64,000 bases of DNA, taken from NCBI GenBank assembly GCA_022592445.1, contig JABYQR010000065.1, positions 62,001 through 126,000 of the forward strand. The letters are read 5' to 3'. Source of the stretch: Cytidiella melzeri (lineage: Eukaryota; Basidiomycota; Agaricomycetes; Polyporales; Irpicaceae). Below, in pieces: positions 5,733 to 63,427 of the stretch. The notes beneath the pieces were generated by a model. That model was not told the origin of the DNA. It worked only from the letters and a program-made list of their open reading frames with translations, and did no database searches. A program made the position numbers and the translations under genes. Numbering within the stretch: the stretch's first letter is position 1; each line of letters opens with the position of its first letter.

Positions 5733-6410
5733 CAAACTAAGTAAAGAAAAGTCATAAAAGTTTGTCAGAATGCGCTACGTGATGGTCGTGACTCGAAGCA
5801 GAACGAGAGAGAGATAGAGAAAGTATACAAGTACACTACGGACTACGCTAATGAAAAATGGCCGTTTGTAACAAGTATAAGAGTACACATCGCGATATTT
5901 TATAGTATACATTACGCGGTATAGTACAAAAAGCGGTGATTTCTAATTCCAGGACTGACTGACGTGCGCCAACACGAAGGTCCTAGGCCTCTAAGTCACA
6001 AGCTTAGAGTGCCACTCAACACTACCCTCCTATTGTACTACTCCGCCGATCTACCACTTGTACAAGTGGGAGCTTGTTCCTCCACCACCGGATTTTACAC
6101 TGCGTGTTAGGCAGATTCCGCGTAATGCACGACTTGTTAAAGTCGAGAACCACCAAGGGTGGCTTAAGTATTCAGCTGGGTTGGGAGTGCGTACGCAAGG
6201 GGCAAGTAGGTGAGGGAATTAGCTGTAGAAGATCAGTTGGGAATATTGTATTCGAAGCTGAGGCAGTCAACCAGTACAACTCTACTACTACTATGTGGCC
6301 AAACAAAGTAAAGTAGAGAAACTTACTTATAAGAAAGCTTGGGGGATACTGGTTGATGGATGTCGTTGAGAGTGTGGATGTAGTTAAGCTAAAAGCCGGG
6401 GCTCATAACC
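5733..6410 (-). other. Copia-1 leader and primer-binding site
   Basis: Untranslated leader between the 5' LTR and orfC. On the minus strand it begins with GGTTATGAGCCCCGG (complement of 6396-6410), which is complementary to the anticodon arm of initiator tRNA-Met (GGGGCUCAUAACC). This is the internal 'half-tRNA' type of primer site known from Drosophila copia. The 243-nt ORF at 6074-6316 is on the opposite strand and is not supported. At about 5926-5928 the leader joins sequences that in copia-3 flank the 1.74-kb orfA/orfB module. Confidence 0.7.
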
Positions 6411-13208: not shown

Positions 13209-13400
13209 TTATCTACAGGAAACATAAGACGCGTTACCAACAATTTGACAAGACGGCAGAGACGAAGGAAAGGTGGTACAAAAGTACTACAAGTACAACT
13301 ACAGAAACTTGTTGAAAGTGACTGTGTACAAATGTACAAATACACATCGCAATATTTTATATGTTACATGTGTGGTATTGCTCAAGTTTCAGTTGCCCGT
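13209..13400 (-). other. Copia-2 spacer between orfB and orfC
   Basis: About 190 bp with no open frame of note. It corresponds to the spacer at about 61739-61953 in copia-3; both contain a fragment like tacacatcgcaatattttat on one strand. It may hold the splice or reinitiation signals needed for the AUG-less orfC. Confidence 0.4.
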
Positions 13401-14763
13401 CTAGTCGCTATTTCTAGCTACCATCCTGTCCAACATCTGGAGAAGCTCATTCTCCTCAGTCGGCTGCTCGACAGTCTGTCCTTCCTTGGCTGGCTGTGAC
13501 CAGTCACGAATTTGGTCCTTGACCTCTTCGGACATTGTGGTCCAGTCGTCGTTCTGCTTGAGGTGCCAGGCAATGATTTGAACGAGCTTTGCTTGCTAAA
13601 CTTGTCGTTGCCTTGGACGACCTGCATAGCAGTGTGGAAGTCGTCGTGTCAGAGCTGGAATGGTTCCCGTTCCCCATCTGTGCAATACCAGACAAAACCG
13701 TGTCACATCATTATTGCAACTCGAGCTGATGCTGCAATGAATTTGTACGACTCAATTTGGTCCTCTTCGAGCGCAAAGAACAGGCGACAACCTCCTCCTT
13801 CAATGTTCGACTTGAGCACCACACCATTGTCCGTGATAAAAGACATTGCATCCATGATGTGAGGCTCGGTGTCGGTGAACTTGCCATCCCAGATCTTGTT
13901 GGCGGCATCCTGTGCGTTTTGCAACGCAGTCCCGGTCAATTCGTCCCACTTGAAGCAGTACAAGCTTGCATCATGAAGCTCAGTGGTTGGAGCGACAGGG
14001 CGCTCTTCCCCAAAGAACTCCTCAATAGTTTCAACGGGCTCATTAACAGTGGTAGTGCTCGAGGTGACTGGTAACGGCGGAACCATAGGGACGTCTTGTT
14101 TGATGTTGACGGGTACAGCTGGAGTGCGTGGGCGAGGTAGTTGACGAGGAAGTGGAGACCGGCTCCGTTTGCTGCGACAGGCAGCATGGGCTTGCTCCAG
14201 TTCAAATTGAACTCGTCTGCGGTGGTTGGTGCGGAAACCCGTCCACGAGGTGCGGTTGGCTGCCTTTAAGGCTGAGAGGTGGTGCGGCGACATTGCTGCT
14301 CGTCGTAGAGCTCAGCAAGACGAGGAGTATTGTCCCCCCTTCAATGCATGTCTGCGTGAAGAGAGGTGCAGATGTTGGTGATGATACGGTTCACCGCTTC
14401 CTGTGGACACGGGCGTGGGTGAAGGGATTTGCGGTCAAATGTGGCTGGAGGGGCGCAACGATTGTTAGACCGTGCGCCTTGCGGATTTCCCCCCTCTCGA
14501 TCGACATGGCGAGCTTCTCTAGCCTCGGTATGCCATTGATGGTTCGGGATGGTATTGAGATAGAATGTATGATGGTGATGGTCCCTTCTAGATTCTAAAC
14601 GATCGTAATCGAACCTTAGCTGGTGCAGTCCGATTTGTTGAATTTGCAAAGTGTTACCTCCAGCCAGGCGAACTCGCTCAGTACGTCTTTCTAAAAACTG
14701 TTCCCAGTTCCTGGAGCGCTGTTCAGCCCTTTCAAAGATAGCATTGGTACGGCGGGCGGGCAT
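13401..14763 (-). pseudogene. Copia-2 orfB, decayed accessory ORF
   Basis: Counterpart of copia-3 orfB. It starts at the ATG 14763, 2 nt after the orfA stop, with an MPARRTN start like the MPNNSRRT start of copia-3. The first part is open to about 14341 and a second to 13703; two in-frame TGA codons and a frameshift follow. The end is recognisable: DDFHTAMQVV against ADFHTAMEVF in copia-3, then, in the shifted frame, a helical tail (AWHLKQNDDWTTMSEE against LTQRHMEKKEDWMSIF) to a TAG at 13401. Total length, about 454 codons, matches the 471 of copia-3. The N-terminal half is basic and the middle proline-rich. Function unknown. Homology rests on position, ends and the C-terminal motif; the centre is poorly conserved. 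Confidence 0.6.
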
Positions 14764-14765
14764 GT

Positions 14766-15041
14766 TTAGAATTCGTGGGTGAAACGGAATGCGGGTTGAA
14801 GTGCTCGTCGGTTATCGGTGTCGATCCAGAAAATAATTCTCGGAAGTGTGCAAGGAATTTCTGTGAAAGGAATAAACTGTGAGAAAAACTCTTGCACAAG
14901 AGATTCTTCACGAAAATTATCCCCAAATTCGACTTCAACCGAACGATAAGCAATGGTGAAACAAATAGAGCGCGCGTAACTAATATGCGAATGTGCAGGA
15001 GACAAAATCTCCGTGAAACCAAAAGTAACAAAGTTCGACAT
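14766..15041 (-). CDS. Copia-2 orfA, small accessory protein
   Basis: Intact 91-codon ORF. It is homologous along its length to copia-3 orfA: MSNFVTFGFTEI against MSSTFTFGITEI, then RSVEVEF against RLVEVEV, ESLVQEFFSQF against ESLVENFYSHS, and IPCTLPRIIFWID against IPRTFSRKVLWIE. The leaders just before the ATG are also alike (tagaattt, then gaggc). The stop TAA is followed after 2 nt by the orfB ATG, the same spacing as in copia-3. No known domain is recognised; it looks like a small beta-rich soluble protein. Conservation between two distinct copia families despite DNA divergence indicates past selection on the protein. Confidence 0.68.
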   Translation of the reverse strand: MSNFVTFGFTEILSPAHSHISYARSICFTIAYRSVEVEFGDNFREESLVQEFFSQFIPFTEIPCTLPRIIFWIDTDNRRALQPAFRFTHEF

Positions 15042-15561
15042 AAGCCTCTACTAAATTCTACAAAAACCGACAAATTGGGAATGCCAAGGGTATTAACTGT
15101 GCGTCGTACACAGCTCCTTTTAGTCCCCTGAGTCACGAGCTCAAGGTGACGCCTACTTTCCCTCCTTTCACCGCTTTTCACAGCCTCCCAATTGTCTAAG
15201 ACAAAAGACCCTTTCGATCACCTCTGGACGCCACCTTATTGGGCTTTGTCCGAGTAGGTGCATGATTCTGATAGTGAATCACAAGCCAAGAACACTTATG
15301 AGGTGTAGGCTACCGATTGGATGTGACTGTGCGCGTGTTCCAGGGGTAAGAAAGCAGGGGCAATTCTGTAGAAAATAGTTATGGGAAAAATGGCGAGAGA
15401 GGCGAGGCTTAGTCTACTACAACTGGGTCTTCTACTACAAAGTGGCCTACAATGTGTAGAAAGAAATGTTACTCACGAAGTAACAGTTGTGTAGTGTCGA
15501 GCTTGAGGATGGTTTCAGAGTAGAGGAGTGGTAAGAAGAGTTAGAAGCGGGGCTCATAACC
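15042..15561 (-). other. Copia-2 leader and primer-binding site
   Basis: About 500 bp of leader with no supported ORF. The primer site is at the right end: the minus strand reads GGTTATGAGCCCCG immediately after the LTR (complement of 15548-15561), matching the initiator tRNA-Met anticodon arm as in copia-1/3, although the LTRs are unrelated. Confidence 0.65.
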
Positions 15562-16074: not shown

Positions 16075-16243
16075 ATAAGTCACATATATAGGGCCTTGCA
16101 TGCTATGCAGCAGACGAGCATTCTACTAGGCGTCCCCCTCTCCACCGTCTTATCAACGTATGCCAATTGCCCAGCTTGGTCGCCTTGCCATTACATACTA
16201 ACATCCACTTGATAGAATATTGGTTCACTCAAGCACCCTGTAA

Positions 16244-40889: not shown

Positions 40890-41326
40890 TGTCACGAACA
40901 GGCACACTTTTTACTTTTCTTATCTTATCTTATCGATGGCACATGGCTCCTGCATGTGATCAAGTACATGTGACAGACTGGTCACATGATCATAGAAGGT
41001 GCTGGAACATTGTGGAACATTGTAGAACATTGCACCATAGCACACCATATGTTCCCACGGCAGTGTTAGGAGTACAGACCCGGTACCAGGGGTCCTTGTC
41101 TGAGATGTATATAAACCCACCTTGTACCTTCCTAAAGACCTCAGATTCTACCTCCTGGTCTTTAGGTGACGTCCACCTTGTACTAGGTCTATCACTGTAC
41201 TAATATATCCTGGTCTTTAGCTCATTGTCAGCTGCTTCCTCGTTGTCGTCTCTCTCCCTTTCCTCATCATCATTATCCCTGTCGTCATCGTCCACGCGAG
41301 TTTACTCGTCGTTCCTCCCCCCCCGT
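40890..41326 (+). repeat. Gypsy-1 5' LTR
   Basis: Starts TGTCACGAACAGG, as does 48797. It contains a TATA element (gtatataaaccc, about 41107) and the repeated phrase cctggtcttta. The right boundary is placed where similarity to the 3' copy ends (after the C8 run); the true end could be a few bases further. It has small indels relative to the 3' LTR. Confidence 0.82.
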
Positions 41327-41898
41327 TCAAAGCCATTGTCTCCTACGTCTCACGCCGCCCTCACTACCATCCCCTGGGCACCAGGCTTCCTGCCTTCGAC
41401 CACAAAAAGTTTGCTCGTGACAACGAGTCCATCAAGGAACGTGCACGCACAGAACGCGCGCAAACCCTCGCAGAACGAATTGAGAAACCGTCTCTCAAGG
41501 ATCGCGTCTCCCAGGCACCCCCGCCACCTCGCCCAGACGCATAAAAACCTGTGACACTCGATTTTCACAAGTTTTTCATCAAGGATCAAGTCGGTATCCT
41601 CAAGCCGAAAATCGAGGCCACTACCAGACGCCTCAAGATTCTGATCGAACTCACTCACAACCGGAACAATTTGCAGACCTGGGCAATCTTACTCCTCAAC
41701 AATAAACTTCTGCACCTCATCGACCACACGGAGGAAGTACTCTCCACACGCACACCTGCCCAACTCAAAGCACTGAATTGGGGCTTGCAGTCAGTAGGGC
41801 AGATCAACTTCACGCAATTACACAAGAGGTTGACAGAAGTTACGAGTAGAGTTGCATTTGTAGCAGTCGGAGGATACTTCGAAAAACTTCCCTTGTAA
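41327..41898 (+). pseudogene. Gypsy-1 open frame upstream of gag
   Basis: About 190 codons in one frame with a single internal TAA (about 41542). The first part is charged and helical (FDHKKFARDNESIKERARTE); the second reads DFHKFFIKDQVGILKPKIE and NNKLLHLIDHTEEVLSTR, ending in tandem stops TAA TAG (41897-41902). A clear ATG at its beginning is not obvious. It is unlike standard Ty3 Gag; it could be an N-terminal Gag extension or a separate product. Function unknown. Confidence 0.45.
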
Positions 41899-41902
41899 TA
41901 GA

Positions 41903-43355
41903 TAGTCATCATTGAGTGCAATAATCTATCCCACATCTTCAACCCCGACGATCTTCAGGATTGTCACAATAACGAAGAAGACCACGCGTACATCGAGGTC
42001 TGCGAACAACAACTGTGTCCAAATCGAAGTCAAAAGTTTGTAGTATCTCGTCATTTCAGAGAAGGACAACGATACTCTGGTTACGCACCCTGCGATAACA
42101 GTCAAATACCGCTGATTGTTGAAGTTCCCGGAGTAGTCAAAGTTCCGGGAGAACCAGAACTTGAGACCAGTACAGTCACACCGGTCTTAACTGAAATCAC
42201 CACTGCCGTTCCTGTCCCTGAATCCATACCGGAAACCTCGCCGGTAACTCCCGAATTACCTACAGTTGCCACCACCAATCCCGTACCTGTCATAATGGCA
42301 ACACCCGCAGTAGATCCCACCCTGATTGCAGCTATTGTAGCTGCAGTTGCGCAAGCAACGCCGAGACCACAAGTCACGGTCAACAATAATGACTCCAAGC
42401 CCGATAGATACAAGGGCAAACATGGCCGCGACTTAGAGCAATTCCTGTCACGATGCGAGGCTTACTGGGTGACTGCCAGTATTGCCGATGAAAAAACCAA
42501 GGTCCTGACAGCAATCTACCGGTTGTCAGAGAAGGCTGCCCAATGGGCAATACCGGTCACAGACCATATGGCTGACCACAACGGTGATTTGCCAGCCAAC
42601 CTCGATACATGGGCCAAGTTTAAAACGGAGCTCAAGAAGTACTTCAGCGATGCAACGCCCGAAGATACTGCTATCTGTGAGTTGGAAAAGCTCTGTGGAG
42701 CAGAGAAAAAGGAGAAGAATGCGCATGACGTAGGTACTTACGTCACCGGTTTCCAATCCTACGTGGGACGCATTAATGGGTTGAGCGACAAGGACAAGGA
42801 GATCCGGTTTATCAAGGGTCTCCCTGAATACATCTATGGGCGACTGGCAACGGCCAAAACACCTCCAGCCAATTACCAAGGCTGGATTGATAGGTCCCTA
42901 AAAATGGCAGCTGCATACGCCCGCATCAGGGAGACAACGAAAAAAAAACTCCGTCTGTTCCCCCGTCAACTACGTCGAGGCCTACCCAATCTCAGCCCAG
43001 GTTTACTCCGGCTCCCCGTCCTTCCAACAGTCCGGTTCCCATGGAGGTCGATGCCTCCAAGATGCAACAAGGTTGGCGGTGTTACAACTGCCAAGAACTT
43101 ACCACCGACCCTAGTCACATTGCACGCACGTGCACCAAACCGGCAGTTCCACACCCACCACCTCGAGGGACTCGTGTGGCTGCTACCACTGGAGAGGTAT
43201 CTTCTTCTCGGGCCGAAGAAAAGAAGCCTGAGAAGGAAGAAGCGTTGAGCTCGTTGGGAGTGTTGGAAGTGACACTCAATGCCGTGCTAGGAGAACTGGA
43301 GAAGTTGAGGGCGGAGAACGCCGACCTCAAGAAGAGACTTGAGGAGGGTTTTTGA
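41903..43355 (+). pseudogene. Gypsy-1 gag, frameshifted
   Basis: After the tandem stops an AUG-less frame (with CEQQLCPNR at about 42005) runs in frame into Gag, whose first methionine is at 42295 (MATPAVDP). The capsid region is clear: DRYKGKHGRDLEQFLSRCE, KYFSDATPEDTA, FIKGLPEYIYGRL, PANYQGWIDRSLKM. A frameshift in an A-run at about 42940-42948 moves the rest to another frame, where a variant zinc knuckle (CYNCQELTTDPSHIARTC, longer than the usual CCHC spacing) and a coiled-coil tail (LEKLRAENADLKKRL) are read to a stop at 43355. Gag would form the particle and bind RNA. Confidence 0.8.
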
Positions 43356-45274
43356 TTCGGGCCGTGATTTGAGCTGCGCAAGCACGTGCCCCGTGTATAC
43401 CATGTAACAATAGATTTTCCGTACTCGCGTCTGATGTATTAGAGACTGGTTCTGAATTGGAACATTTTCACGTACCCATCACAGTTTCAGGAGTGCGGAG
43501 ATCTAAAGAAGTTGCAGCAATGATTAATAGTTGAGCCTCAACACTATTCATTCATAAATGGTTTGTTCGAGAACATCGTATCAGGACCCAGAAGTTGAAA
43601 CAACCAATTCCGGTGTACAACATAGATGGAACCCCAAATCGAGACGGGGCTATTGATGAAGTCGCCATTCTCAATATGAGGATAGGGGACCACGAGGAAA
43701 GGACTATCTTCACGGCTACCGACATTGGGCCGGAAGATGTAATCATAGGAATCGATTGGTTGAGGTACCACAACCCCACCATTGATTGGTACAAAGGCAT
43801 CATCAGGATGGATGGATGTCCTGATGCGTGTAAACCTAGAGAACGGGTTGAGGAAGCGAAGGAGGTTGCAGCTAAGAGAACAGCTGAGCCTAAATGGAAG
43901 AAGAGGACCCCGGGATTACAGAAAGTTGTGGAACAACTTCCGTACTTGCCGGTGGATACAGAGGAGGCTGAAGAAGACCTCGAGGAGACCACAGAAGGTT
44001 CAGAAAGTTTGGATGGGGCCGAATCGCCGAAGTTACAGGCACAGGCCACTACTCAGCTTGGTGGAAAAGGAACTCCCCGACGCATTGTACACACACGTCT
44101 GACACCTATGGTACAAGAAGGCGAACACTTGTTCACTCTAGCAGGATACACATACTCTAGTGAACTAGCTGAAGTTGAGAACCAGGTTAAACCAGTCAAA
44201 ACCTTTGAGGAGATGGTACCTGAACAATATCGTCAACATGCTCACATCTTCTCTGAAACGGAATCTCAACGACTTCCAGAACACAAGTCGTACAGCCATG
44301 CAATTGAGTTGATTCCGGAAGCAAAAGGATTCCACGCAAAAGTTTACCCGCTTTCACACCCTGAGCAAGAAGAGCTTGATAAGTTTATCTGAGAAAATCT
44401 AGAAAAAGGGTACATTCAACCGTTGAAGTCCCCAATGGCGTCACCCTTCTTCTTTGTCAAGAAAAAGGATGGAAAGTTACGCCCAGTACAGGATTACCGG
44501 AAGTTGAACGAAGTCACTATCAAAAACAGGTATCCATTGCCGTTGATCTCCGAACTCATGGATAGACTGCGAGGCGCTAGGTTCTTTACCAAGCTAGATG
44601 TCAGATGGGGATATAACAATGTCCGTATCAAAGAAGGTGATGAACACAAGGCAGCGTTTGTTACCAACCGTGGACTCTTCGAACCAACTGTCATGTTCTT
44701 TGGACTCACAAACTCTCCAGCTACGTTTCAGAACATGATGAATGATATTTTTGCCGACCTCATTGCCGAAGGCAAAGTCACGGTTTACTTGGACGACATC
44801 CTTATCTACTCCAAGGATATATCTGAACATCGAGAAGTGGTACATGAAGTTCTAAAACGGCTCAGGCAACATGACCTGTTTTTGAAGCCGGAGAAATGCG
44901 AGTTTGAGAGGTCAGAGACGGAGTACCTTGGCGTCATCATTGGCCACAATCAGTTACGCATGGATCCTGTCAAATTAAAGGCAGTGGCTGAATGGCCTGT
45001 ACCGCAGAACGTCTCCGATATCCGCCGATTCCGCAGGTTTGCAAATTTCTACCGAAGATTCATCAGGCACTTCGGGAAGATATGTAAGCCCTTGGATCAT
45101 CTCACGGGTAAGGTACCTTGGAAGTGGGGCCCTGAAGAGCAGTCGGCGTTTGATGAACTCCGCCGACGATTTGTGGAAGCACCGGTGTTGGCAATGTGGA
45201 GTTTTGATAGACCCACACGTTTGGAAACAGACACATCCGGATATGCAATGGGAGGAGTATTGGAACAACAAGCC

Positions 45275-46056
45275 TGTTGCGGAGCGACTGCTGATAGACT
45301 GATAAACCCTAAACAAGGGTGAAGTAGATGTGAGGGGGAAGTGGAAAGGGATCTCCAACGACGACAGCGAGGTCAAAGTCGATGATAAGCAGGCAAGCAG
45401 GCACAAAGGCCGGATACTAGCAGTGCAAATGACAGAGTTAATATGGTATGATACTAAGTTACATGCAGTAACTCACCTAGCAGTGCAAATGACAGAGAGG
45501 CCAAGATGCAGAGCTAGGGAGGGTAAGGTCTACTATATATACTGTGGCTGGGTGGTCTGTGCACAAGTTCCCACACTAGGGACTGGAGTAACAATAGAAC
45601 AATAAGGGACCAGGGTAACTGTCAAGGACCTGAGTAACTGTCAAGGACCAGGGTACGTAGAACAATAGAGCTAGAACAATAGAACAATAGAACAATAGAA
45701 TAGGAACAATAGAACAATAGAAACTGGGGGAATCCCTGGGGAATCCCTAACAATAGATAGAAGACAATAGTCGAAAGACAATAGAACAATAAGATCTGGG
45801 GGAATCCCTGGGGAATCCTCATCAATGGAAGAGGAACAATAGAACAATAGCCTAGGTTGATCTGGAACCGCTCCAGACTGAGTCTAGGGTTTGGGTCTGG
45901 ACTATTAATAAATAAGGCAGGATGTCACGTGACCCGGGTTAGGGTTAGGTCTGGTAACACTCCTAGCTGGAAAATAAGCGCTCTAGATAGGCGCTTAAGG
46001 CTGTAAACTTGTGACAATGTTGGAAAAATCTGGTCTCTGTTGGACTATCCATGTCA
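45275..46056. repeat. Solo LTR, family D, inserted in gypsy RNase H
   Basis: 782-bp insertion starting TGTTG and ending GTCA, flanked by the 5-bp duplication AAGCC (45270-45274 and 46057-46061). Removing it rejoins VLEQQA to EDGTWHP in frame. A TATA-like ctatatatac lies at about 45533, suggesting plus orientation. The right third is a minisatellite of agaacaat-type units. No other copy of this family in the window. Confidence 0.85.
45590..45850. repeat. agaacaat microsatellite inside solo LTR D
   Basis: Imperfect array of the octamer agaacaat/aacaatag with interspersed copies of a longer phrase (ctgggggaatccctggggaatcc twice, at about 45724 and 45797). Probably grew by slippage within the LTR. 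It is not spaced like a CRISPR array. Confidence 0.7.
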
Positions 46057-47130
46057 AAGCCGAAGACGGCACGTGGCATCCAGTAGCCTATCGGTCTGAG
46101 GGCATGACTGAGACCAAACAAAACTATGAGATTCATGATTGAGAACTCATGGCAATTGTACGAGCCCTTGAGGACTGGTGTCACTACCTGGAAGGGCTAC
46201 CAGAGAAATTACCTATTTTGTCCGATCATAAGAATCTTGAGTACTGGAAGACAGCCCGTAACTTGACACGTCGTCAAGCACGTTGGTCGCTATTTCTCTC
46301 ACGTTTCAACTTTGAGATCATTCCAAAGCCCGGGAAATCTATGGGAAAGTCAGATTCCATGTCACGATTGGGTCAACACGAGGTCAAAGACAAAGAAGAC
46401 AATCTGTCACGAGTAATTGTAGCGCCTGAGGTTTTCCGAGCTGCCACTTCTCAACGTGGGCAAGCTAGTGTACAGCCAGACAGAGACCTGTTGAAACGTA
46501 TCTGTGAATGTTCTCTTCGAGAGACCGAGGTGGCAGAAGCACTTGCCAAAGTCAAGAAACTCGGACCTCGTCTTCTTAGTCGTGGACTCGAAGAATGGAA
46601 CGTGGAGAATGGACTGTTGTTGTCCCGGGGAAAAGTTTACGTCCCTAAAGATGACGAGATCCGAAAGGAACTAGTTTGGAGACATCATGACTTACCTGCT
46701 GCCGGACATCCGGGCAGATACAAAACACTGGAGTTACTATCCCGGAACTACTGGTGGCCCAGCATGACACGGTTTGTCAATGATTACGTAGACACATGTG
46801 ACACCTGTCAAAGAACAAAGACGTACCCTGCTCCACCACGCGGTCTGCTCAATCTGCTAGAACCACCCAATGCCCCATGGGAAAGTGTCACCACAGACTT
46901 CATTGTCAAACTACCGCCATGTAAAAGATATGATTCCATCATGGTTGTGGTTGATCGAACAACAGCACAGGTGCATTGCTACCCATCACGGGAAAGCATG
47001 AAGACTCCTGAACACGTACAAGATTATATTGCAAACGTGTTTTGACTCCACGGTGTATACCTCGCCAGATGATCTCAGACCGCGGATCAGTATTTGCGTC
47101 TAAGTTTCTTCGTGCTATCTATGATGCACT

Positions 47131-47818
47131 TGTCATGGATGGCCTGACTAGCCCTTAATTTTCGCAATTTACCTCTTGTTTTACCTATAAAACTCCGGGC
47201 TGCAGCTCAGTTGCAACCTTCTTTGCACAAACTCCTTTGCACGTCTATTAAGCGCCCGTATCACGTGGCTTAGACGCTCCACACGGTCACATTACTTGCT
47301 ACTACGTCACACTGGCATGTGACTTAGCTTAAGTAAGACCACATGGCTACAACCACATGGCTCAGCCCATAGCCAGGGTTTGATGTCATAGATGACGTCC
47401 ACATGGACTCCTTTTGTTCTTTCCTTATTGTTCTCTTTATGGAAGGATGTTCTCACAGGTGTGGGAATGGAATACAATAGTTGGTCTCCTTTAGATAGAT
47501 TCTCTCATGAGTAGAGTTCTTGGCAAGGTCTAGACAATAGCTATTGTTCTCCTTTAGGTAGTTCTTTTGTTCTTCATTCACACGGCTTCTTGCAAAGCCT
47601 GCCCTCAACATGGTCTGTGCGCAGGTCCCTGAAGTCTATATAAGCAGCTGCATGTACGCTCCTAGCCCCCATCTCGACCTCTTGGTCTTTACTAGGCTAG
47701 ATAACTTGAACAAAGTCTGATAGCTGGTGAGAGCATTGTGCTTCACACCTGCCACCACCTCCTCGTCAATATCCACTCCGTGTCCCTGTTTGTCACGTCG
47801 AGCCCCGTCTCCCTGTCA
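47131..47818 (+). repeat. Solo LTR, family C, inserted in gypsy integrase
   Basis: 688-bp insertion, TGTCA at both 5' and 3' ends, flanked by GCACT (47126-47130 and 47819-47823). Its removal restores the integrase reading AIYDA-LGVKSSMSTAYHPQ. It has a TATA element (tctatataagcagc, about 47635). Same family as 7099-7857, opposite strand; it lacks that copy's extra internal repeat. Confidence 0.9.
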
Positions 47819-48796
47819 GCACTCGGAGTAAAGTCGTCCATGTCCACTGCGTACCATCCTCAGACAGATGGTAAAACCGAACGTATGAACCAAGAGATAG
47901 AACAGTATCTCCGAGTGTTCTGCTCCTTCAGACAGGATGACTGGGTGGATTGGTTACCAATTGCGGAGTTTGCGCTTAATAGCCGAGTACACTCATCCAC
48001 CGGGAAGGCTCCCTTCGAGCTGATTTATGGGTATCTACCGGAGTTCCATGGGCCTTTGAACCCAGTGTCAAATGTTCCCGCAGCAGACGAACGTCTTCAA
48101 GCGCTTCGAAAAGCCCAAGAAGATGCTAAAGCTGCGCTACAACTTACAGCAGAATGCATGAAACGGTTTTATGATCACGGAGTTGCAAAAGCTCCACAGT
48201 TTAAGGTTGGAGACAAAGTTTACGTGGAACGCAAAAAACATCCAAAGGAACAGCCGGTGGCAAAGCTAGCACCAAAACGAGATGGTCCCTATGAGATTTT
48301 AGAAAAGATTGGGCATTTGGATTACCGGGTTAAACTCACCATTCGAGACAAGCGTCACCCGGTGTTCCATGTGGATAGGTTGCGACCAGCCAAGACGGCA
48401 AGTTTGGTCCCTAACCGGGAATTTCCTGAACCCGAGCCGATTGTGGTTGACAAAGAAGAGGAGTACGAGGTAGAACAGATTCTTGATTCAAGAATCTTCG
48501 GGTGAAAGAAGGAGTTTCAGTACCGTGTGAAGTGGAAAGGATACCCAGAATCAGAAAATTCCTGGGAACCAGCAACCAACGTCACTCATGCCGATGAAGC
48601 TGTCAAAGTTTTCCACAGACGACACCCAGGAGCTCTACGACCAATCGCAGCATCTCTATTCTTGGCAATGAATTTCCGACCAATCAACAAAATTTTTGAG
48701 AAACTACCTTCAGAAACTCTACAACACGTATCCTTGTGGGAAGACGGTAGACTTAACTCCTGCCTTCCGGAGAAAAGGCCTTTAGGAGGGGGGTAA

Positions 48797-49233
48797 TGTC
48801 ACGAACAGGCACACTTTTTTTACTTTTCTTTTCCTTTTATTTTTCCTTATCTTATCTTATTGATGGCACATGGCTCCTGCATGTGATCAAGTACATGTGA
48901 CAGACTGGTCACATGATCATAGAAGGTGCTGGAACATTGCACCATAGCACACCATATGTTCCCACGGCAGTGTTAGGAGTACAGACCCGGTACCAGGGGT
49001 CCTTGTCTGAGATGTATATAAACCCACCTTGTAGCTCCCTAAAGACCTCAGATTCTACCTCCTGGTCTTTAGGTGATGTCCACCTTGTACTAGGTCTATC
49101 ACTGTACTAATATATCCTGGTCTTTAGCTCATTGTCAGCTGCTCCCTTGTCGTCGTCTCTCTCCCTTTCCTCATCATCATCACCCCTGTCGTCATTGTCC
49201 ACGCGAGTTCGCTCGTCGTTCCTCCCCCCCCGT
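48797..49233 (+). repeat. Gypsy-1 3' LT R (possibly clipped)
   Basis: Same repeat as 40890-41326, starting TGTCACGAACAGG after the polypurine tract. It carries an extra T-rich stretch near its start and lacks about 20 bp of the 'ggaacattg' repeat of the 5' copy. Similarity stops after the C8 run; the next about 25 bp lead into the copia-2 fragment. Confidence 0.82.
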
Positions 49234-49257: not shown

Positions 49258-50256
49258 GTTTGGTTGTGTTCTTGACAAAAGGCGCAGTGTCATGGGTCCC
49301 GAGGAAACAAAAGACTGTAGTGCTCTCTTCAATGGAAGCAGAGTACATGGCATTATGCGACACAGCGAGGCAGTGTGCTTGGATATGTACTATGCTTAAG
49401 GAGTTGGATATGTCACCAAAAGGTCCCACTATGATCTATTGCAACAACCACGGTGCCATCTTCTTCAAAAAGAATCCAAAGATTGAAGCTCGTTCAAAGC
49501 ACATTGACATTCGTTACCACTATGTTCGCGAGTTCATAAATGACGACAAAAAGGCAGAACTCTATGCCATCCCAACTGAAGACCAAGTTGCTGATATTAT
49601 GACCAAGTCATTGGCATTTCAGAAACAGTCTAAATTCAGTGGGAGTCTTGGACTAGTGAACTTTACTGCACCCTAACAAGATGCTGTCATTCAAAGTAGC
49701 TCAAAGCAAAATGATGTTGGCATCAAGTGGGAGTGTCAAAGCGAGATTGTATCACTGATTATTGGACATCAGATCTATGGACAATGTAGATTAGATATGT
49801 AGATAGATAAGATCAGATAGTACATAGCATGTGATTCCACCATCCTTATGGTCACACACGATGCGATACTTGCACCTTATGGCATCGTGTTCCAGTAGTT
49901 TCCATGGCTGAATAGCAGAAGTACCATGAGGCTTCTGCATGACTCATATTTCATATACCAAATGTATTGAGCTTACTAAAGGCTCAGTCAGCACCATTCA
50001 GTTATGTAGGATGCTCAGTCATCGCTTACATTCTCTATTCAGTAGTAATAGCAAGCAGGACTGTGCATTACCAGTCCTTACTCATAGGATTACCAATCCT
50101 TACCAATCATTACTCATATGACATTACTGTAGCATTAGTAATCTAGTTACAGACATGTATGTATACCGCTCCTAGAGAGCAGAGAAATGATAAGACACTT
50201 ACTCCCAGAGTTAGTTGACTCTCCAAGTCATCCCCTACACTTGTAACTTTCAAACA
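49258..50256 (+). mobile_element. Copia-2-type 3' fragment: RNase H end plus LTR
   Basis: The left part reads the last about 135 codons of copia-2 Pol on the plus strand (TKGAVSWVPRKQKTVVLSS, IYCNNHGAIFFKKNP, KHIDIRYHYVREF, DIMTKSLAFQKQ), ending in VNFTAP and a TAA at about 49674. A polypurine tract (aagtgggag) and a complete LTR 49734-50256 (523 bp, TGTCAAAGC to CAAACA) follow. Everything 5' of RNase H is missing. LTR elements rarely truncate at the 5' end during insertion, so deletion or recombination is more likely. Confidence 0.9.
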
Positions 50257-50257
50257 C

Positions 50258-50681
50258 GGTGTGTGGCAAGGAGAGCATGAGTGGCATCATGACTGTCGGG
50301 GTGGCTGTAGACATTGAGAAAGAAGCATTCCTCATGGCCGAAGGAGAGGGAGAAGCACAAGAGGTGGGGATGTGTTATATCATGGCGTGTGCGCGGGTTG
50401 GATCCAGCCCACCTGCAATTGACATAGCAGGCTACCCGAGCCTGTCGGATGTCGGTGACTTTGAGGAGAAGCCAGTCCGCAGATTGCACTTGCAGCCCAA
50501 GGTATTTGTTGCCCTGGGGATTGGTGGAGGAAGGGCTTCATTTCAGAACCAAGTACAAACGTTCTTGGATAAAAATGGCATCAGCTAGAATGAAATGCTG
50601 CAGCACCGCTGCGGTGTTATTAGCCGTATGATTTGCATGAAAGGAAATTATCCTAAATGTATTCTGTGTCTCTGCGGTCAT
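50258..50681 (-). pseudogene. LINE ORF2 fragment, endonuclease N-terminus
   Basis: Starts with an ATG at 50681 one short gap after ORF1 (same frame). It reads TFRIISFHANHTANNTAAVLQ, ADAIFIQERLY, QVQSADWLLLKV, RQARVACYVNCRW and CFSLSFGHEECFFLNVY, the usual N-terminus of the apurinic-type endonuclease of Tad-like LINEs. It has one internal TGA (50538-50540) and is cut at 50257 by the end of the copia LTR. Reverse transcriptase is absent from the window. Confidence 0.7.
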
Positions 50682-58982: not shown

Positions 58983-59532
58983 TGTTAAAACTATATAATA
59001 TAATAATATGATATGATATGTAGTTTCCCACGCCTTATTATAAGGACGCTTTAGGTAGCAGAGTTCCCACAGTCTTAGTATGGGAATCATGCAGCCATAT
59101 ATGGAAACTCTAGTAGTAACCATCACATTAGCTGAGACGTACAGATATGGGTTGTAGTAGTACTATACATATATGTACGCCTGTGTTCTAGTAGCATAGG
59201 AAATGACATGGAAAGCACATATGACTCCAGAGGATGCCTAAAGCATACATCTGAGGACAAGTACTAGCATGAGTCATTTACTCATTATGTACGCCTCTGG
59301 TACAAGTGCTGATCCTAGTCATACAATGAGTCATGCACTCATAGCATGAGTCATGCATGAGTCATGCACTTAGTAATACAGTAGAATAGCTGAAGTAGAC
59401 ATGTATAGTAGTCGCTTACATAAGTAGATACAGACATGTATATAAGCAGAGCTGCTGAAGCAGCAAGAATAATAAGACTCATCTTCGAAGCTTAACAGCC
59501 TCTACCCCTCGCACACATATTCCACTTTGTTA
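58983..59532 (+). repeat. Copia-3 5' LTR
   Basis: Starts TGTTAAAAC and ends CTTTGTTA. TATA element gtatataagcag at about 59438; four TGAGTCA sites (59272-59365). Same family as 154-683 and 6411-6968. Confidence 0.9.
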
Positions 59533-60038
59533 GGTTATGAGCCCCGGCTTCTAGCTTAACTACATCCACACTCTCAACGACATCCATCAACCAGTATCCC
59601 CCAAGCTTTCTTATAAGTAAGTTTCTCTACTTTACTTTGTTTGGCCACATAGTAGTAGTAGAGTTGTACTGGTTGACTGCCTCAGCTTCGAATACAAAAT
59701 TCCCAACTGATCTTCTACAGCTAATTCCCTCACCTACTTGCCCCTTGTGTACGCACTCCCAACCCAGCTGAATACTTAAGCCACCCTTGGTGGTTCTCGA
59801 CTTTAACAAGTCGTGCATTACGCGGAATCTGCCTAACACGCAGTGTAAAATCCGGTGGTGGAGGAACAAGCTCCCACTTGTACAAGTGGTAGATTGGCGG
59901 AGTAGTACAATAGGAGGGTAGTGTTGAGTGGCACTCTAAGCTTGTGACTTAGAGGCCTAGGACCTTCGTGTTGGCGCACGTCAGTCAGTCCTGGAATTAG
60001 AAATCGCCGCTTTTTGTAGCTGTAGAATTTCTTGAGGC
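59533..60038 (+). other. Copia-3 leader and primer-binding site
   Basis: Primer site GGTTATGAGCCCCGG (59533-59547) directly after the LTR, complementary to the initiator tRNA-Met anticodon arm. The remaining leader matches copia-1 up to 60018. The ORF at 59627-59869 is on the other strand and present in copia-1 too; its conservation follows from the DNA identity of the copies, not from coding. Confidence 0.65.
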
Positions 60039-60323
60039 ATGTCGTCCACTTTTACTTTTGGTATCACGGAGATTGTGGACTCTCCTATACTTTGTGGTGT
60101 TTCTTACATGCGCCATTATGTTTTCGTTGTATCATACCGACTGGTAGAAGTCGAAGTTGCAAGTGGTCATACTCGTCTTGAATCACTTGTGGAAAACTTT
60201 TACTCACATTCGACTTTTCCATTAGCAATCCCCAGGACTTTCTCAAGGAAAGTGTTGTGGATTGAATACGACGACATAAATCTTATACTTTCGATTCTTT
60301 CTTCCAGACCGTTATATTTTTGA
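60039..60323 (+). CDS. Copia-3 orfA, small accessory protein
   Basis: 94-codon ORF beginning ATGTCG after the leader phrase gtagaattt-x-gaggc that also precedes copia-2 orfA. It aligns end to end with the copia-2 protein (see 14766-15041), the best-conserved part being the N-terminal FTFGITEI, RLVEVEV, and the final LWIE. It stops TGA at 60321-60323, 2 nt before the orfB ATG. No signal peptide, zinc motif or known fold is recognised. Conservation in position, start context, length and spacing across two diverged copia families argues for a real gene. Confidence 0.72.
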   Translation: MSSTFTFGITEIVDSPILCGVSYMRHYVFVVSYRLVEVEVASGHTRLESLVENFYSHSTFPLAIPRTFSRKVLWIEYDDINLILSILSSRPLYF

Positions 60324-60325
60324 AG

Positions 60326-61738
60326 ATGCCGAACAACTCTCGCCGCACTTCCCGTCGCGTCAATGCCCGCTTCGCTCCCCATTCTCCCAATGATCCCTAC
60401 CGCGTCCATGATTACACTCGGTTTGACCGTATGGGTCACCCCATCGTTATGGAGATAAGGAGTTCAGCAACTCCCATCTCTATCCGTATGAGTCAAACCG
60501 ATGCTCAGGATGCCAGGATCAATGTCAACTACGTTGACAGGGACGGAGTTCGGCACATGGAATCGATGGAGTATAGTCTTCTTGGTCGTCATGGCTGGGA
60601 CAGATTTAGGCAGAGTGACAGGCAAAGGCACCTCCGAGAGGTTAATCGCATCATTGATGAAGCCAATCGAGAGGTGGAATTGGATTTATACAGACGAAGG
60701 CCTCGTAATGTCAGCGCGGAAATCAGGGCGCATCAAACCCAAATTTCTTCCAGGGTTAATGCTGCACCTCCTCGCCAATCTGCGTCGCCGTCGCACCCAC
60801 ATCCTCATTGTCATCCTACTCCAATGCCACCGCCTTTTGTGAGTGCAGGATTATCGTTTTGGGACATGGTTGCCCAAGCATTAAATAATTTTGCATCTCC
60901 ACAGACTTCTTCAACTATGGTCAATCCGCCTACACCGGTCATTCCGGATATCGTTGATGGTATGAACGGTTTAAATATCAGTTCACCAGTTTCTCATGAT
61001 TCTTCAGAACCAGTAGTCCAGGCCGCTTCAGCTGCCGAGCCTACTCCGGTTCCATCCTCCACTACTCAGGAGGAGGGACAGGTTGAAGATGAATGGCCAA
61101 CGGTATACGCTCCCCAACCAGTCATTCCCACTTTTTCATTCGACGACTGGGTCCACGTTGATCGTACAGACACTAGGCCGGCTTCGCCCGTCTACGCGTG
61201 TGGTATGGTTTACGGCGTGGATGGACCAAAGGGGGAGGTTTTCAGGCCGGAGCAAGTTTGTTCCATCCTCGCCATGCAACACGTTCAACATCCCAACTAT
61301 ATGCCCAATGAGCTGGTCTTACGCTCTAAGGGACTGGTTGATACAATGGTCGTTAGCATGGGCAACAAATGCGAGCACTATTGTGAGATGGTCGAGGAAC
61401 TGGAGGAATTTGCCAAGTCTCAGCGGATCAAGGAGATCACAGCCTGTGCCCGGATCTACCTCAAGCTCAAGAGGGGACAGTGGCCGGACTGTGACAACAT
61501 CTGGAATACGTACTTTATCTCAGTTGCAGACTTTCACACAGCGATGGAGGTCTTCAATGGTTGCGATCATCTTAGCGATCACCAGCTGGTCTGGCTGACA
61601 CAGAGACATATGGAGAAGAAGGAGGACTGGATGAGTATCTTTCATAGGGAGGAAGAATTTAAAGGCAAAATGAAGGAGGTAAAGATCGAGCCCGCTGTGC
61701 TCGAGCCTTCTTTAGAGCCTGGATCGTCTTCTCTTTGA
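60326..61738 (+). CDS. Copia-3 orfB, accessory protein of unknown function
   Basis: Intact ORF of 470 codons starting at the ATG two bases after orfA. About residues 1-150 are basic and arginine-rich (RRTSRRVNARF, WDRFRQSDRQRHLREVNRI); about 150-255 are proline/histidine/serine-rich and disordered (SPSHPHPHCHPTPMPPPF); about 255-450 form a probable globular helical domain (FSFDDWVHVDRTD, VYACGMVYGVDGPKGEVF, KCEHYCEMVEELEEFAKSQ, CARIYLKLKRGQWPDC, ADFHTAMEVF). No reverse transcriptase, protease, envelope or zinc-knuckle motif is present. The basic N-terminus suggests nucleic acid binding (inference). The ORF is undamaged in an element whose gag is frameshifted. Homologue: decayed orfB of copia-2. 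Confidence 0.7.
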   Translation: MPNNSRRTSRRVNARFAPHSPNDPYRVHDYTRFDRMGHPIVMEIRSSATPISIRMSQTDAQDARINVNYVDRDGVRHMESMEYSLLGRHGWDRFRQSDRQRHLREVNRIIDEANREVELDLYRRRPRNVSAEIRAHQTQISSRVNAAPPRQSASPSHPHPHCHPTPMPPPFVSAGLSFWDMVAQALNNFASPQTSSTMVNPPTPVIPDIVDGMNGLNISSPVSHDSSEPVVQAASAAEPTPVPSSTTQEEGQVEDEWPTVYAPQPVIPTFSFDDWVHVDRTDTRPASPVYACGMVYGVDGPKGEVFRPEQVCSILAMQHVQHPNYMPNELVLRSKGLVDTMVVSMGNKCEHYCEMVEELEEFAKSQRIKEITACARIYLKLKRGQWPDCDNIWNTYFISVADFHTAMEVFNGCDHLSDHQLVWLTQRHMEKKEDWMSIFHREEEFKGKMKEVKIEPAVLEPSLEPGSSSL

Positions 61739-61953
61739 ACGGACTCTCAAGCAAATCGAACTATACCGCGCAATGTATACTATAAAATATCGCAATGTGT
61801 ACCTTTATACTTTTACAAACGGTCATTTTCATTAGCGTAGTCCGTAGTGTACTTGTATATTTTCTCTATCTCTCTCTTGTTCTGCTTCGAGTCACGACCA
61901 TCACGTAGCGCATTCTGACAAAATTTTATGACTTTTCTTTACTTAGTTTGTAA
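61739..61953 (+). other. Copia-3 spacer between orfB and orfC
   Basis: Short untranslated stretch. From 61761 it matches the copia-1 leader again. Contains pyrimidine-rich blocks ending in tag (actttacttag-like at about 61946, ctttag at about 61975) that could serve as splice acceptors for the AUG-less orfC. Confidence 0.4.
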
Positions 61954-62522
61954 CGTTGTACTCTGGCTTCTTTAGCGTGTACGAATTCTGAATTACACCT
62001 CTTTGACTCAGAGAACTTTTGTGACGTCAACAGTGTTGCAAGACCCTGTGAAACACAACCGTGCCCTAACCGCTATAGATATTCGTTTGAAGCAGATTTA
62101 AACGAAGTTTATAGAATTATTGCATTGGTAACACAGGACCGGTATCTTGAACCTTTTGAACATCAGAAAGAACTCATTGGAGGTTACATAGGATCTGTAC
62201 CGCATCTTGACGTACCTGCTTTAGTCACTGCATACTTTCAAACTTAGCAAATCGTCGAGAATCAGAACCACAGAACAACAAACCAGAAGTAGTAATAGAT
62301 CAGGAACCATCAGAGATCATCACAGGCACAACTTACATTGGTGACACATCAAATCAATCTCTAGATAAGAACTCAGATTCCAGAGAAAATACCGAAGTCG
62401 AAGATCTTCTAGAAGAAACTTCTAAACAGACGTCATCACCTGTAATTGCACCTGTAGTACCTCATATCTCTGAAGTGTACATTCTGTACTACAACTTGAT
62501 CCTTGATTGCTTTTGGTTATAA
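61954..62522 (+). CDS. Copia-3 orfC, AUG-less frame ending on the gag start
   Basis: Two registers: 61954-62247 (with FCDVNSVARPCETQPCPNR and YLEPFEHQKELIGGYIGS) ends in TAG. A register one base back continues from about 62244 to the TAA at 62520-62522, whose last A begins the gag ATG (TAATG). Acidic and Ser/Thr-rich in its second half (NTEVEDLLEETSKQTSSP). Copia-1 has the identical arrangement; copia-2 has a single continuous frame with the same motifs, so a shared one-base change or a -1 frameshift is implied. No ATG opens the first register. Function unknown. Confidence 0.55.
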
Positions 62523-63427
62523 TGGCTGAACCAGGAAAGATTAGCGGTAGTCAAATGATCGTCTTTGACGGTTCAAACTACAAGAAATGGTCCACCGCTA
62601 TGATTGGCTTGTTCAGATATTCAAACACTTGGTTAATCGTGAATGGAACCGAAAAGAAACCTACCTTACCTGTAGCAGCTACCAGTTCAGGTTCTGGTAC
62701 GACTACTGCACCTCCTGACACTTCTGATGAGAAGAAGGAACTTAAGGATTGGGAAATTCGGAACCAACGCGCTTTAGCTTATTTCAATATTTACCTTGAC
62801 ATTACTTTGCAATCCTATCTTGAAGGAGAGGATTTGGCCTCCGAAGTGTGGAAGAAATTGAAAACAGATTTTGAAAAGACATCAGTCTTAGCAAGCTCTG
62901 TTGCGTTCAGAAACCTACTTAGCTCAACTTTTGATGAGTCTAAGGATATGAACGTACAAATTCAAGGCTTCCGTACTAAGATTGGAGATACCAAAGTTGC
63001 TGGGTTAGACCTTGATGATCAAATTAAAGTTCATATTCTTTTGTGGGCTTTACCAACGTCATATGAAACCGCCATTTCTGCATACATTGGCACTGTTGCA
63101 AAACCCGAAGAAATTAAGTTTGACACGCTCATCCCCAAGATACTTGCGGAAGAGTTACGTCGAAAGGGTTCAAACAGTGAAAATGCGAATCGGATTACGC
63201 AGACCACGCGTTTACCGAAGGAAAAATGCAAGAAGTGTGGGCTTTCTAACCATACTACGAGTCAGCACTGGGATAAAGGGAAACCTAACCAGAACAAGTC
63301 TCGGGTAATGGAAATAATCAGCAAGGATCTTCTACCAACAACAAGCAGGGTAACAAGGAGAATAAAGGAAAGAAAGGAGGACAACGAAAGAAGTCCAAAG
63401 GCAAAGGCAAAGACAAAGCGACTGTAA
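62522..63427 (+). pseudogene. Copia-3 gag, frameshifted near its end
   Basis: Starts at the ATG overlapping the orfC stop (MAEPGKISGSQMIVFDGSN). Copia-type Gag with a variant zinc knuckle CKKCGLSNHTTSQH (C-C-H-H instead of C-C-H-C). At about 63303 one base present in copia-1 (tctcgtggtaa) is missing (tctcgggtaa), so the lysine/glycine-rich link to protease is read out of frame and stops at 63427. The region lost in copia-1 is intact here and the reverse. Confidence 0.88.

Follow-up and report, generated by a model that had tools for sequence, protein, structure and literature searches.

In a stretch of 64,000 nucleotides from the basidiomycete Cytidiella melzeri (contig JABYQR010000065.1, positions 62,001 to 126,000; hereafter the window, to which all coordinates refer), we examined the long terminal repeat (LTR) retrotransposons copia-3 and copia-2, which probably represent a Ty1/copia lineage with a conserved pair of accessory genes (orfA and orfB) within an alternatively spliced intron of the leader. 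Further copies of both families were searched for in the genome, which measures 49.7 Mb. The original prediction had placed an intact orfA of 94 codons and an intact orfB of 470 codons between the 5ʹ LTR of copia-3 and gag, with homologues in the same order in copia-2, and this arrangement was borne out: both copia-3 frames are open and lie between the primer-binding site (PBS) and gag, and in the window copy of copia-2 orfA is intact and orfB frameshifted, with an intact orfB found in another copy of that family (L036). The range given earlier, 60019-61760 (+ strand), turned out to be the stretch that is missing from a third element, copia-1, and the gene pair proper spans 60039-61738. The features on which the argument is built are as follows.

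58983..59532, + strand: 5ʹ LTR of copia-3 (TGTTA...TTA), matching both LTRs in full-length members of the family
59533..59554, + strand: PBS region GGTTATGAGCCCCGG with a 5-codon upstream open reading frame (uORF), MSPGF (ATG 59537-59539, stop 59552-59554)
59617..61946, + strand: predicted leader intron of copia-3 (GTAAGT...TTAG), placed by homology to the stretch missing in the copia-2 copy L039
60039..60323, + strand: orfA of copia-3, 94 codons, open, with the first AUG past the PBS uORF in unspliced RNA
60326..61738, + strand: orfB of copia-3, 470 codons, ATG 60326, stop 61736-61738, open, starting 2 nt past the orfA stop
62522..63427, + strand: gag of copia-3 (start of gag-pol), ATG 62522, Pfam Retrotran_gag_2 with E 7.6e-23
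14766..15041, - strand: orfA of copia-2, 91 codons, without lysine, intact, 42% identical to copia-3 OrfA
13401..14763, - strand: orfB homologue of copia-2, frameshifted in the window copy, intact in copies elsewhere
13213..15476, - strand: putative leader intron of copia-2, 2264 nt long and bounded by GTGAGT...TGTAG; it corresponds by homology to what L039 lacks

The element is a Ty1/copia LTR retrotransposon, as indicated by a copia Gag, integrase (INT) placed before reverse transcriptase (RT), LTRs and 5-bp target duplications. The window copy of copia-3 starts at 58983 and extends beyond the window end; both LTRs were seen in seven of the ten copia-3 copies fetched at 10 kb, and the target duplications of these seven were exact in five, carried a one-base mismatch in one and were absent from one. 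The first open reading frame (ORF) of copia-2 carries the Pfam domains Retrotran_gag_2, gag_pre-integrs and rve, and RT lies on its second ORF, relatives of which carry PF07727. The two families are 81% identical over RT and RNase H and only 35% identical over the first 250 residues of Gag, which makes them related copia families. The sequence GGTTATGAGCCCC after the LTR fits what we take to be the anticodon stem-loop of initiator tRNA-Met, and is presumably a candidate for a half-tRNA primer.

The gene pair is found repeatedly in the genome. Copia-3 OrfA detected its counterpart by tblastn in all ten copia-2 loci (E 9e-9 to 2e-13), and copia-3 OrfB did so through residues 337-451 in three of the ten (E 4e-6 to 2e-8); the intact OrfB of L036 (454 aa) is 28% identical to that of copia-3. 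In searches of the genome, where the best candidates alone were scored and the counts are lower bounds, copia-3 OrfB gave at least 93 matches, of which at least 20 covered residues 1-470 without a stop, copia-2 OrfB at least 94, of which at least 12 covered residues 1-453 or 1-454 without a stop, and copia-2 OrfA at least 150. The further homologues that the original prediction called for are therefore present, within the same genome. Since the pair occupies the same site in two families and travels in full-length copia-3 insertions with two LTRs and 5-bp duplications, it is a module of the element, and not a host gene captured once, an origin that had been named as one of the ways in which the prediction could fail.

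The orfB gene is under strong purifying selection. The ratio of nonsynonymous to synonymous substitution (dN/dS) between the window copy and ten other intact copia-3 copies was 0.087-0.147, which is close to 0.1 and far from 1, in keeping with the predicted selection on a function; the corresponding polymorphism ratio (pN/pS) pooled among those ten copies was 0.088. In a comparison of eight copia-3 copies (28 pairs), pN/pS was 0.08 for orfB and 0.10 for orfA, compared to values of 0.43 in gag-INT and 0.33 in RT, and across all 22 intact copia-3 orfA genes it was 0.21. Among 24 copia-3 copies, some of them cut by contig ends, orfB was intact in 11 and orfA in 22. The idea that the ORFs arose by chance or by a single capture and are functionless for the element, with which the failure to find an OrfB relative beyond this genome, within the collections screened, would agree, is contradicted by dN/dS of about 0.1 and by the open full-length copies in two diverged families, and we regard it as highly improbable.

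The synonymous diversity of orfB was 0.131, about 13 times that of gag-INT (0.010), with orfA at 0.023 and RT at 0.013; all-site differences were 0.007 in the leader and 0.022 in the LTR. Divergence from the window copy peaked in orfB, at up to 11.5% per 200 nt, and the four-gamete test failed in 1908 of 3160 pairs of informative sites among 11 copies. Taken together, the synonymous diversity and the four-gamete failures make the orfB alleles look older than the surrounding element and reshuffled by recombination, with a nearly unchanged protein. Balancing selection acting on the RNA, for example through escape from small-RNA silencing, could be the cause of this diversity.

The evidence for splicing of the leader comes from genomic sequence, and its centre is the copia-2 copy L039, in which, as a pattern scan revealed, the leader runs straight into the sequence preceding gag. 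This copy lacks precisely the 2.27 kb that reach from the donor in the leader to the acceptor before gag, and the missing part would hold orfA and orfB. In comparison with the copy L030, L039 was 99.5% identical over 609 nt, ending at the base before the GTGAGT donor, and 98.8% identical over 1067 nt, starting at the base after the TGTAG acceptor. When the genome was searched with a 141-nt junction query and the best 40 of 113 candidates were scored, only one place (C336) spanned the junction, 30 others stopped on the left of it (nt 69-72), and nine began on the right (nt 71). L039 has the form expected of a trace left by a reverse-transcribed spliced RNA. The donor GTRAGT was present in all 24 copia-3 copies and GTGAGT in nine of 11 copia-2 copies, and the acceptor CTTTACWTAG in all 13 copia-3 copies having the gag-start motif. 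It appears from these junctions that orfA and orfB lie within a GT-AG intron, which in copia-3 would contain the leader hairpin (described below) as well as both genes.

Two other splice products were considered and rejected, one with a small leader intron whose last bases are CTACAG, the other with an acceptor immediately before orfA (TGTAG|AATTT): pattern scans, which accepted only exact matches to the exon end, revealed no genomic copy with either joint. Some of the patterns excluded copies with A at the last letter, so they give no count of unspliced copies. A block TATAAAATATYGCRATGTGTA was also observed after orfB in both families of the window (61781-61801 and about 13362-13341), inside the predicted intron; in its sequence it is TATA-like or poly(A)-like.

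The distribution of AUG triplets points in the same direction. The stretch before gag (592 nt in three copia-3 copies, 612 nt in one copia-2 copy) contained no AUG, compared to shuffled means of 7.7-10.3, and in each case none of 1000 shuffles was as low; in a wider set, it was free of AUG in 11 of 13 copia-3 copies. In copia-3 the AUG-free zone opens 17 nt ahead of the predicted acceptor, in copia-2 at the acceptor itself. Between donor and orfA, 19 of 22 copia-3 copies measured had no AUG in some 422 nt, where 3.6-3.7 would be expected (P 0.0145 for the window copy and 0.007 for the copy L025). The 5-codon uORF in the PBS, MSPGF or a one-residue variant, was present in all 22 copia-3 copies and in eight of ten copia-2 copies with the motif. 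The gap of 2 nt between orfA and orfB was kept in 22 of 23 copia-3 and eight of 11 copia-2 copies. The orfB AUG has A at position -3 in all 24 copia-3 copies whereas the orfA AUG has G (copia-3) or C (copia-2) there, so that leaky scanning is also possible.

The AUG-free stretch contains an additional frame, which we call orfC.

61947..62521, + strand: AUG-free stretch before gag, with the methionine-free frame orfC, which is frameshifted in the window copy

The stop codon of orfC shares bases with the gag start codon (TAATG in copia-3, ATGA in copia-2), the frame is open over 189 codons in seven of 13 copia-3 copies (L014, L015, L017, L023, L026, L027 and L028), and its stop-free length exceeded that of all 2000 shuffles. 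There was no third-position excess among the changes between copia-2 and copia-3 (134/124/126), in an alignment whose copia-2 row was partly out of frame with its stops dropped, and the selection ratio was 0.53 from few changes. We regard orfC as a possible third gene.

A hairpin was found in the part of the predicted intron that precedes orfA.

59934..59954, + strand: hairpin with a 7-bp stem and a CUYGUGA loop, 85-105 nt ahead of orfA and within the predicted intron

In an alignment of 16 distinct rows, 97.3% of the cells were paired and three pairs were altered on both sides; a search of the copia-3 leader against Rfam gave no match. By analogy with the packaging signals of retroviruses, the hairpin could mark the unspliced RNA.

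The RNA of an LTR element must serve as both genome and mRNA. In the mechanism that we propose, splicing would switch the element between the accessory proteins and Gag-Pol. The unspliced, intron-retaining RNA would be the mRNA of orfA and orfB, the genomic RNA thereby doubling as accessory mRNA; orfA would be read from the first AUG past the 5-codon uORF, and orfB would be reached by leaky scanning or by stop-start coupling across the 2 nt. The spliced RNA would be the mRNA of gag-pol, with gag at the first AUG. Such a division would be simple, visible in the sequence and testable by RT-PCR. The original prediction offered no mechanism, and it named neither the intron nor the AUG-free zones, the lysine-free stretch described below or the methionine-free frame before gag; the evidence for splicing now supplies a candidate mechanism of expression.

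Neither protein gave a significant Pfam or PDB match, in line with the original prediction. For OrfB, the Pfam matches were all below the curated cut-offs (Stc1 E 0.014, Thioredox_DsbH 0.047, RsfS 0.14), as was that for copia-2 OrfA (PID_2, E 0.26), and the PDB profile search returned only E values of 1.2-1.3. A search of 5.8 billion proteins, whose word filter may miss fast-evolving relatives, was made with OrfB and a control RT as queries; no OrfB relative was found at E 0.001 either with OrfB alone (4347 candidates) or with the alignment of both families (5483 candidates). The control, copia-2 RT, matched 7952 of 7973 scored proteins in the same collection, the best of them 79% identical and named basidiomycetes among them, so fungal elements are present there. 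No OrfB relative was found among viral contigs either.

OrfB has a two-part layout: its first part contains arginine and is free of lysine, and the lysines are all, or almost all, in a C-terminal part, which is acidic and includes the best conserved stretch, DFHTAM. The first lysine stands at residue 302 in ten of 11 intact copia-3 copies (at 254 in L012) and at residue 290 in the one copia-2 copy measured (L036), leaving lysine-free stretches of 301 and 289 residues that keep 30-43 arginines in both families. In two copia-3 copies and L036, the stretch had no in-frame AAR codon, with five to 12 in the other frames; base composition predicts 7.7 and 8.7 such codons (shuffle P 5e-5 and 0.0027). 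The stretch is not due to composition and is a lysine desert. OrfA is also poor in lysine, with one in 21 of 22 intact copia-3 copies and two in the remaining one, and with none in four of 11 copia-2 copies and one to three in the rest. The gag-INT and RT products are rich in lysine, and none of their lysine-free runs exceeds 93 residues; the copia-3 gag-INT product has 102 lysines in 1066 residues, and its longest lysine-free run is 89.

As for what OrfB does, we place first a factor whose target is the unspliced RNA or the particle, and next a host-directed ubiquitin adaptor. In the first case OrfB would act in export, stability or packaging, perhaps via the intronic hairpin, the lysine desert would shield it from ubiquitylation, and OrfA would be its partner; this assignment, including the protective desert, is a guess that we hold with low confidence.

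The second case, which we consider unlikely, is that OrfB sends a restriction factor of the host to the proteasome, like a retroviral accessory protein, and spares itself by its lysine desert. The retention of a long, arginine-containing, lysine-free stretch in two proteins that are only 28% identical would suit such a role, and resembles what is described for proteins of the ubiquitin-proteasome system. In the consulted passages of PMC10169902, long lysine deserts are enriched in these proteins, those studied are not depleted of arginine, and protection from ubiquitylation is given as their purpose. The same passages describe lysine deserts also for some viral proteins, where they are thought merely to avoid degradation, and they tie no lysine desert to an LTR retrotransposon, a link at which no search was aimed. 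No domain of the ubiquitin system was found among the Pfam or PDB profile matches, which speaks against an adaptor.

Alternatively, OrfA and OrfB could have a structural role and supply the particle with a second protein, translated from the genomic RNA. The two-part build of OrfB, with the acidic, lysine-containing C-terminal region and its DFHTAM stretch, and its divergence between families at about the pace of Gag (28% versus 35% identity) are compatible with this; however, there was no match to Gag, capsid or zinc knuckles, and the element already has a Gag of the Retrotran_gag_2 type. We find a structural role rather improbable. An envelope-like protein is highly improbable: the additional ORFs that LTR elements carry often resemble envelope genes, but orfB is located 5ʹ of gag and OrfB has no membrane-spanning segment (peak mean hydropathy over 19 residues 0.78 in copia-3 and 0.97 in copia-2).

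The intron itself has to be weighed against another history, in which L039 is a chance deletion or a misassembly, the leader is not spliced, and either one RNA serves all genes with reinitiation or gag is expressed from an internal promoter (the TATAAAATAT block). Deletions of almost the same stretch do happen, as is seen in copia-1.

5924..5925, - strand: point in copia-1 at which the orfA/orfB stretch (copia-3 60019-61760) is missing, with flanks 97-98% identical to copia-3

The TATA-like block TATAAAATAT is conserved after orfB in both families, and a spliced form was found once in copia-2 and not in copia-3. Against this history, L039 ends exactly at the GTGAGT and TGTAG that the other copies retain, in both families the AUG-free zone starts no more than 20 nt ahead of the acceptor, and the ends of the copia-1 deletion are not GT..AG, for which reason copia-1 was rejected as a spliced copy. 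These ends share a 1-base overlap, and the junction was found once in the genome (up to three mismatches allowed). We consider it improbable that the leader is not spliced.

Several observations weigh against our interpretation that orfA and orfB are accessory genes in an alternatively spliced intron. The only copy in the spliced form is one genomic copy of copia-2, L039, which runs off the end of its contig so that its 3ʹ end is not visible, and the genome scans revealed no spliced copia-3 copy. The AUG pattern has exceptions: the PBS uORF is longer in the window copy of copia-2 and in L038; AUGs occur between donor and orfA in three of seven copia-2 copies measured, the other four being free of them; one AUG precedes gag in two of 13 copia-3 copies; and, of three copia-2 copies, L029 has two and L030 one in that position. 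Copia-3 orfA contains two further AUGs, or three in a single copy out of 23. Our interpretation does not account for the open orfC frame. The covariation in the hairpin is mostly a single difference between the families and counts as one piece of evidence, not many, because almost all of its changes fall between them, and the folding z-scores of the region are weak (-1.94 and -1.14). Within copia-2, the selection ratios of orfA in comparisons with the window copy scatter between 0.07 and 1.67, from few changes and decayed copies. Finally, AlphaFold, run on the window sequences only, gave models with pLDDT 36.5 for OrfA and 37.3 for OrfB that are unusable, so for RNA binding composition is the evidence at hand.

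The proposed layout has counterparts in other systems. In the leader of retroviruses, the donor lies between the PBS and the first gene, and a conserved hairpin follows the donor and is present in unspliced RNA only; the leaders studied here are alike in having the donor between the PBS and the first gene and a hairpin beyond it. The order is the reverse of the retroviral one, since orfA and orfB precede gag, and the unspliced RNA would give the accessory proteins and the spliced RNA Gag-Pol. Fungal victoriviruses use stop-start coupling, which the overlap at gag (TAATG or ATGA) and the 2-nt gap between orfA and orfB recall; the frame that precedes gag here, orfC, is devoid of AUG, so coupling at that point is not established. 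A stop/restart signature is named in the title of PMC6631646.

Ogre of pea and Retrosat2, RIRE3 and RIRE8 of grasses are Ty3/gypsy elements. According to the portions of PMC1142308 seen, Ogre has an ORF of 550 codons and unknown function between LTR and gag, and introns upstream of gag were as of 2005 unreported for any LTR retroelement, Ogre included. Ogre and the present elements share an additional ORF between LTR and gag, but the gag-pol order and domains here are those of copia. Upstream of gag-pol, Retrosat2, RIRE3 and RIRE8 carry ORF0, an orphan frame whose divergence outpaces that of the gag-pol ORF (PMC3485330); it is a single ORF, whereas there are two here, and the word intron did not turn up in the text of PMC3485330. 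In the plant copia elements BARE1 and EVADE and in copia of Drosophila, a spliced subgenomic RNA sets the protein output (PMC3735527, PMC8892269, as excerpted). As described in these excerpts, splicing in BARE1 and EVADE acts downstream, blocking pol and leaving Gag only, whereas here two accessory genes would be removed upstream of gag.

Additional ORFs 5ʹ of gag (Ogre, Retrosat2) and Gag-only splicing in copia elements are already known. A literature search that covered few subscription papers, in the parts of the sources accessible, did not turn up a copia element having an intron 5ʹ of gag, any of these proteins, or a report later than 2005 of such an intron in an LTR retroelement. Given these known ORFs and splicing events, we see here a variant on known themes, in which the orfA/orfB pair apparently inside an intron upstream of gag is new. 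That this is the first LTR lineage with intron-encoded accessory genes and gag-pol as the spliced product, and with a lysine-desert regulator that is made from the unspliced genomic RNA and acts back on it or on degradation in the host, we judge to be about evenly balanced. With two orphan proteins that show clear selection and a lysine desert, a fungus now offers a way to test what purpose ORFs of this kind ahead of gag serve, a question of long standing.

Some minor observations were made on these elements and their neighbours. In several copia-3 copies (L014, L025 and L027), the RT frame near the RT start differs from the gag-INT frame, while at some genomic sites frames across gag remain open for as many as 1493 codons. 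A functional RT may be missing from many copies, or they may use a frameshift. A Ty3/gypsy element at 40907-49231 (Retrotrans_gag, RVT_1, Integrase_H2C2) adjoins a fragment of a copia-2-type LTR at 49273-50263, and a frame of 725 codons with DUF6535 (16167-18344) lies immediately beside the copia-2 LTR.

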